This document shows positions 10,803 through 11,132 of a stretch of 35,184 bases of DNA, in pieces. Numbering within the stretch: position 1 is the first letter of the stretch; every line of letters begins with the position of its first letter. Position numbers and translations under genes: made by a program. The notes under the pieces were generated by a model, which worked only from the letters and a program-made list of their open reading frames with translations, made no database searches and was not told the DNA's origin. The stretch lies in the NCBI GenBank assembly GCA_003153355.1, contig PLYH01000001.1, positions 3,379 through 38,562 of the forward strand, read 5' to 3'. The stretch comes from Candidatus Peregrinibacteria bacterium. Its GTDB lineage: Bacteria; Patescibacteriota; Gracilibacteria; UBA1369.

Positions 10803-10836
10803 AAAAGCAAACCCCCACATTGCTGCGGGGGTTTTT
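10803..10836 (-). terminator. intrinsic terminator of rpsU
   Basis: AAACCCCC (10809-10816) pairs with GGGGGTTT (10827-10834) around a 10-nt loop. On the minus strand the stem is followed by GCTTTTTT, the required U run. A T run on the plus side could make it bidirectional. Confidence 0.88.
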
Positions 10837-10843
10837 AAAAATC

Positions 10844-11050
10844 TTAGTAAAACTTCTGTCTTTCACGCTGTTGGCGGTAATGCGTACGCATCATGGCAGC
10901 AGTGCGTTCATGACGTTTGCTTGGTTTCTTTTTGCGATAACGTCTCTCCTTGTTCATCAAAATGATACGGCTCGATTGAACCTTTTTGTTGAAACGGGAG
11001 ATCAAACGATCCACAGACTCTTTCTGGTTTTTCCAAAGGGTAATGGCCAT
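10844..11050 (-). CDS. rpsU: small ribosomal subunit protein bS21
   Basis: A 68-residue, strongly basic protein of the 30S platform next to the anti-Shine-Dalgarno end of 16S rRNA. The pattern fits bS21: a short beta start (AITLWKNQKESVDRLISRF), then ERRYRKKKPSKRHERTAAMM and a long basic helix. The gene has a full AGGAGGTGA (complement of 11057-11065), 6 nt before the ATG, the only perfect Shine-Dalgarno sequence found in front of any gene here. A clear promoter (11105-11132) gives a leader of about 48 nt that could form a small GGCTT/AAGCC stem upstream of the ribosome-binding site. A terminator follows at 10803-10836. Confidence 0.93.
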   Translation of the reverse strand: MAITLWKNQKESVDRLISRFNKKVQSSRIILMNKERRYRKKKPSKRHERTAAMMRTHYRQQRERQKFY

Positions 11051-11056
11051 ACAGTT

Positions 11057-11065
11057 TCACCTCCT
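11057..11065 (-). promoter_or_regulatory. perfect Shine-Dalgarno sequence of rpsU
   Basis: AGGAGGTGA on the minus strand, 6 nt from the ATG. It is unusual here because no other gene start in the window has more than a 3-4 base match. Confidence 0.93.
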
Positions 11066-11104
11066 CTCCTTTTTCAGGGCTTAAAATAAATAAAAAGCCT
11101 CCCC

Positions 11105-11132
11105 ATTATAAAAAGAACTTCCCAAAAGTCAA
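11105..11132 (-). promoter_or_regulatory. rpsU promoter
   Basis: Minus-strand TTGACT (11127-11132) and TATAAT (11105-11110) are separated by 16 bp. The predicted start is near 11098, giving a 48-nt leader. Confidence 0.82.

Follow-up and report, generated by a model that had tools for sequence, protein, structure and literature searches.

The gene for ribosomal protein bS21 (rpsU) in a genome of Candidatus Peregrinibacteria carries an exceptionally strong Shine-Dalgarno (SD) sequence on an SD-less background. This SD is conserved in relatives, covaries with the 16S rRNA tail and is absent where the anti-SD core is degraded. By analogy with Flavobacterium, bS21 is probably autoregulated by ribosomes that lack bS21, here outside the Bacteroidota and without the residue Tyr54. 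In Flavobacterium the mechanism has experimental proof: bS21, bS18 and bS6 of F. johnsoniae hold the 16S tail, and rpsU, the only gene there with a strong SD, is initiated faster by ribosomes that lack bS21, by which the level of bS21 is set; rpsU autoregulation extends to much of the Bacteroidota (McNutt et al. 2023, PMC9976891).

In the mechanism proposed for the present lineage, rpsU mRNA would be initiated via an extended SD/anti-SD helix, and other genes, ribosomal-protein genes included, would be initiated without one. In a complete 30S subunit, bS21 and the platform proteins next to it would keep the 16S 3' tail off the mRNA. In subunits without bS21, the tail would be exposed and would bind strongly to the rpsU leader, and bS21 would be made until the subunits were complete again (a feedback loop). 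We infer the masking of the tail and the feedback itself from the Flavobacterium case. The same logic had been suggested in an earlier note on the window (the whole stretch of DNA analysed, 35,184 nucleotides) for what looked like an unrelated SD-poor lineage; the outlier SD, the intact 16S tail and the conservation described below support it. The lineage does lie outside the Bacteroidota, and the genome has no SD excess over a reversed-tail control.

The genome comprises 1.456 Mb in 7 contigs. The rpsU locus in the window contains the following features:

10847..11050, minus strand: rpsU, ribosomal protein bS21, 68 aa (stop codon 10844-10846), assigned by family profile match
11051..11056, minus strand: spacer AACTGT between the SD and the ATG, read from the sequence
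11057..11065, minus strand: core of the extended SD, AGGAGGTGA, a perfect 9-base complement of the 16S tail UCACCUCCU
11105..11132, minus strand: sigma-70-like promoter of rpsU, TTGACT-16-TATAAT, 11/12 consensus matches (consensus match only)
10809..10834, minus strand: intrinsic-terminator-like hairpin 3' of rpsU, 11-pair stem followed by a T run

On the minus strand the leader reads AAAAAGGAG AGGAGGTGA AACTGT ATG (ATG at 11050-11048), with AAAAAGGAGAGGAGGTGAAACTGT immediately upstream of the ATG. From the position of the promoter, the leader is predicted to be about 48 nt long. Given the sigma-70-like promoter and the terminator-like hairpin, rpsU looks like a one-gene unit. No Rfam family matched the leader above its cut-off as a conserved RNA element.

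Searched by itself, the rpsU protein stayed below cut-off in both Pfam and NCBIfam, its top match being bS21; its sole NCBIfam match, TIGR00030 (S21p), was under the cut-off of that family. A profile built from 22 relatives matched solved PDB chains, nearly all of which are named bS21 (best E 6e-7). The short length of the gene and a family score under the curated cut-off are what an annotation artefact or a chance finding would produce, yet leader and protein are conserved across dozens of genomes, and this explanation is hardly credible; a chance match of the SD in particular was ruled out by its conservation. bS21 was not found in three genomes that are 99-100% complete (G008, G014 and G026), which possibly reflects loss of rpsU. 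Two records labelled Nitrospirae/Nitrospirota (L085, L087) carry a Peregrinibacteria-type bS21 and a GGGGATGA leader, and look mislabelled or mixed.

For the comparison of rpsU with the rest of its own genome, gene calls over 435 kb were made with a simple SD-independent codon model. The 20 bases 5' of each start were scored against the 16S tail, with the reversed tail as control; pairing energies were computed as ViennaRNA duplexes, not with free_scan, and gene starts are inferred. The rpsU leader paired with the 16S tail at -22.3 kcal/mol (core with neighbouring bases). rpsU had been singled out as the only gene of the window with a perfect, correctly spaced SD, and this was borne out: AGGAGGTGA stands six bases from the ATG, and the remaining called genes of the window scored -5.3 kcal/mol or weaker. 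Among the 293 other called genes of the 435 kb, the next best reached -12.2 kcal/mol, which leaves rpsU an outlier by about 10 kcal/mol. SDs were generally absent from these 293 genes, since the real tail paired no better than the reversed one (mean -1.2 vs -1.1). Some stretches of the 435 kb sample had been picked for containing AGGAGGTGA, by which the outlier status of rpsU can only be weakened; this bias runs against the finding.

Because the gene caller may pick wrong starts, all in-frame starts of 360 genes were rescored. This gave 23 matches at or below -11 kcal/mol for the real tail and 23 for the reversed tail, with one additional genuine case, a CDP-alcohol phosphatidyltransferase-like gene. 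The 1.456 Mb genome contains 14 copies of AGGAGGTGA, one of them the 16S tail, vs 4 of the reversed pattern. In this whole-genome search only rpsU and the CDP-alcohol phosphatidyltransferase-like gene were plausible complete genes with AGGAGGTGA at the proper distance from the start. Extended to the whole genome, the description of rpsU as the only such gene thus nearly holds: it is one of two. The second gene (L309, G000:C2:397298-398041) lies outside the window and reads GGAAAGGAGGTGATAGC-ATG, pairing at -22.5 kcal/mol, an SD equal to that of rpsU. It has homologues in a few relatives, and no SD was seen in those homologue leaders that a rough scan could read (several loci were unreadable, and the evidence is weak); membership of this gene in a conserved regulon is therefore unsupported. 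An apparent depletion of SDs relative to the region 50-70 bases upstream was not attributed to selection, as no depletion was seen relative to the reversed-tail control.

Most of the genomes used for comparison are metagenome bins, and the named relatives are almost all Candidatus Peregrinibacteria or Peribacteria (Patescibacteria). An rpsU SD at or below -13 kcal/mol was present in 46/79 genomes of the order, spanning 9 of the 15 family groups with leaders read, and in 10/11 genomes of the family to which the window belongs. The relatives that carry it are themselves SD-poor. Conservation of the rpsU leader SD, on which the earlier suggestion depended, was thus confirmed. In 20 genomes, gene calls across the ribosomal-protein clusters (which cover part of the ribosomal protein genes) gave 0/430 at or below -12 kcal/mol; in the same genomes rpsU ranged from -15.9 to -22.3 kcal/mol (20/20). 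Genes neighbouring rpsU in 41 named genomes gave 0/286 at or below -14 kcal/mol. A second SD gene, rpsR (bS18), as in Bacteroidales, was looked for and not seen: the SD was absent in all 17 readable rpsR leaders, a further 13 loci being unreadable by motif search.

These comparisons bear on the view that rpsU simply has an ordinary strong SD, in which the anti-SD would be free on all ribosomes and a short one-gene rpsU mRNA would need the strongest initiation, with no feedback. Such a view agrees with the intact 16S tail and with the moderate SDs used elsewhere in some other patescibacterial genomes, and masking of the tail by bS21 is itself argued here from analogy. We consider it rather unlikely, since ribosomal-protein genes with an equal need for output do without an SD in 20 genomes, a free and useful tail should be exploited by other genes, and a pairing of 9-13 bp far exceeds the requirement. 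A loop of opposite sign was also considered, in which bS21 would expose the anti-SD and complete ribosomes would favour rpsU (positive feedback or an assembly check). Exposure of the anti-SD by bS21 was proposed for E. coli in older work. A general disturbance of initiation upon bS21 loss, reported in work cited in PMC9723584, would fit this sign as well. A positive loop would be a poor means of setting the level of a ribosomal protein, and it leaves the avoidance of SDs by all other genes unexplained; we regard it as improbable. Autoregulation by bS21-lacking ribosomes would be dispensable within the order, as about two fifths of its genomes have no rpsU SD. Where the rpsU SD is missing (leaders such as L043 and L159), a TATAAT box often stands about 25-30 bases upstream of the ATG, which would make for very short leaders.

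The 16S tail of the genome under study (G000:C4) reads GGATCACCTCCTTTCTAGG, with the CACCUCC anti-SD intact; the 16S gene is truncated where its small contig ends. The 3' end thus retains CACCTCCTTTCT, a check that the earlier note had asked for. 16S tails vary within the order, AUCACCUCC being found in most SD-bearing genomes. Three genomes of the window's family have the tail AUUACCUCC (C1533U), and their rpsU leaders read GGUAA vs GGUGA/GGUGN in others. Two genomes of another family have the tail AUCAUCUCC (C1535U), and their rpsU reads GGGGAUGA, with an A opposite U1535. When three tail classes were scored, the best pairing was with the own tail class for 28/28 leaders (23/23, 2/2 and 3/3). 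In a 22-gene tree built from the ribosomal-protein cluster regions, the C1533U genomes grouped together with support 1.0, far from the C1535U genome. The two changes are on separate branches and therefore represent two independent paired changes; each tail change being one event, the support for covariation counts as two events and not as five genomes. One exception was found (G020), the tail of which contains AACACC unmatched by its leader; this leader pairs slightly better with the canonical tail. That the ribosome uses the rpsU SD is strongly supported by the covariation, for which there is no other good explanation; the covariation exceeds what the earlier note had proposed. A strongly altered anti-SD was observed in G027 (L156, 16S tail AACATTCCCTTATAGG), the bS21-like match of which has an internal stop.

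Within the order, a degraded anti-SD core (CCUCU or UCUCU for CCUCC; CUCUUUU) was seen in seven genomes, which belong to three families. Their tails are L159, L160, L162, L163, L174, L175 and L177. An rpsU SD was found in 0/7 of these genomes vs 32/39 of those with CCUCC or UCUCC (Fisher p 6e-5, uncorrected for relatedness). Seven other genomes retain a CCUCC or UCUCC core without an rpsU SD, so SD loss may come before core decay. The loss of both rpsU SD and anti-SD core in several families could also be expected of a relic, that is, of an ancestral wide SD use that decayed everywhere except at rpsU and serves no regulation. A relic would not follow base changes of the 16S tail in two lineages, and we hold this account to be very improbable.

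Several features are shared with F. johnsoniae and the Bacteroidota: the genome is SD-less with an intact anti-SD, and, among the ribosomal-protein genes checked, only rpsU has an extended SD of exceptional strength (below -13 kcal/mol). As in Chryseobacterium, the rpsU SD covaries with a variant anti-SD, although each variant tail here has one changed base, at 1533 or 1535, rather than the UCUCA core. Unlike in several Bacteroidia orders, the readable bS18 leaders have no SD. The present lineage further differs from F. johnsoniae and the Bacteroidota in belonging to another phylum, in having a regulation proposed by analogy, and in the absence of Tyr54. This residue stacks on A1534 in Bacteroidia and was not conserved among the 22 relatives (the column contains Met, Ile, Val, Leu, Ala or Lys), so the masking contacts, if the tail is masked, must differ, as suggested for Chlorobia. 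In Chlorobia, Tyr54 is absent and 11 other tail-contacting residues are conserved (PMC9976891). Chlorobia resemble this lineage in combining a strong rpsU SD, an SD-less genome and the absence of Tyr54 with a mechanism that is likewise a proposed one; unlike this lineage, they belong to the Bacteroidota in the wide sense.

Tentatively, Patescibacteria may keep the 16S anti-SD largely for rpsU, in a bS21-sensing loop that would have arisen or persisted independently of the Bacteroidia pocket, with decay of the core where the rpsU SD is lost. Autoregulation by bS21-lacking ribosomes, if true, would extend a case of specialised ribosomes proven in one phylum to the Patescibacteria, a large and mostly uncultured group in which translation initiation has hardly been studied. 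It would offer a reason for anti-SD retention in SD-less bacteria and make that retention testable in natural lineages with the loop, without the loop and with matched base changes. A literature search, with subscription papers and preprints outside its reach, found no paper on rpsU SDs or SD use in Patescibacteria.

The wider phylum was sampled with 40 genomes. General SD use varied across the phylum and showed no link to the rpsU SD (Mann-Whitney p 0.30). With identical scoring, rpsU reached -13 kcal/mol or below in 22/40 genomes vs 2% of 453 neighbouring genes, and at or below -16 kcal/mol the counts were 14/40 vs 0/453. Several of the rpsU genes in this sample start at GTG or TTG.
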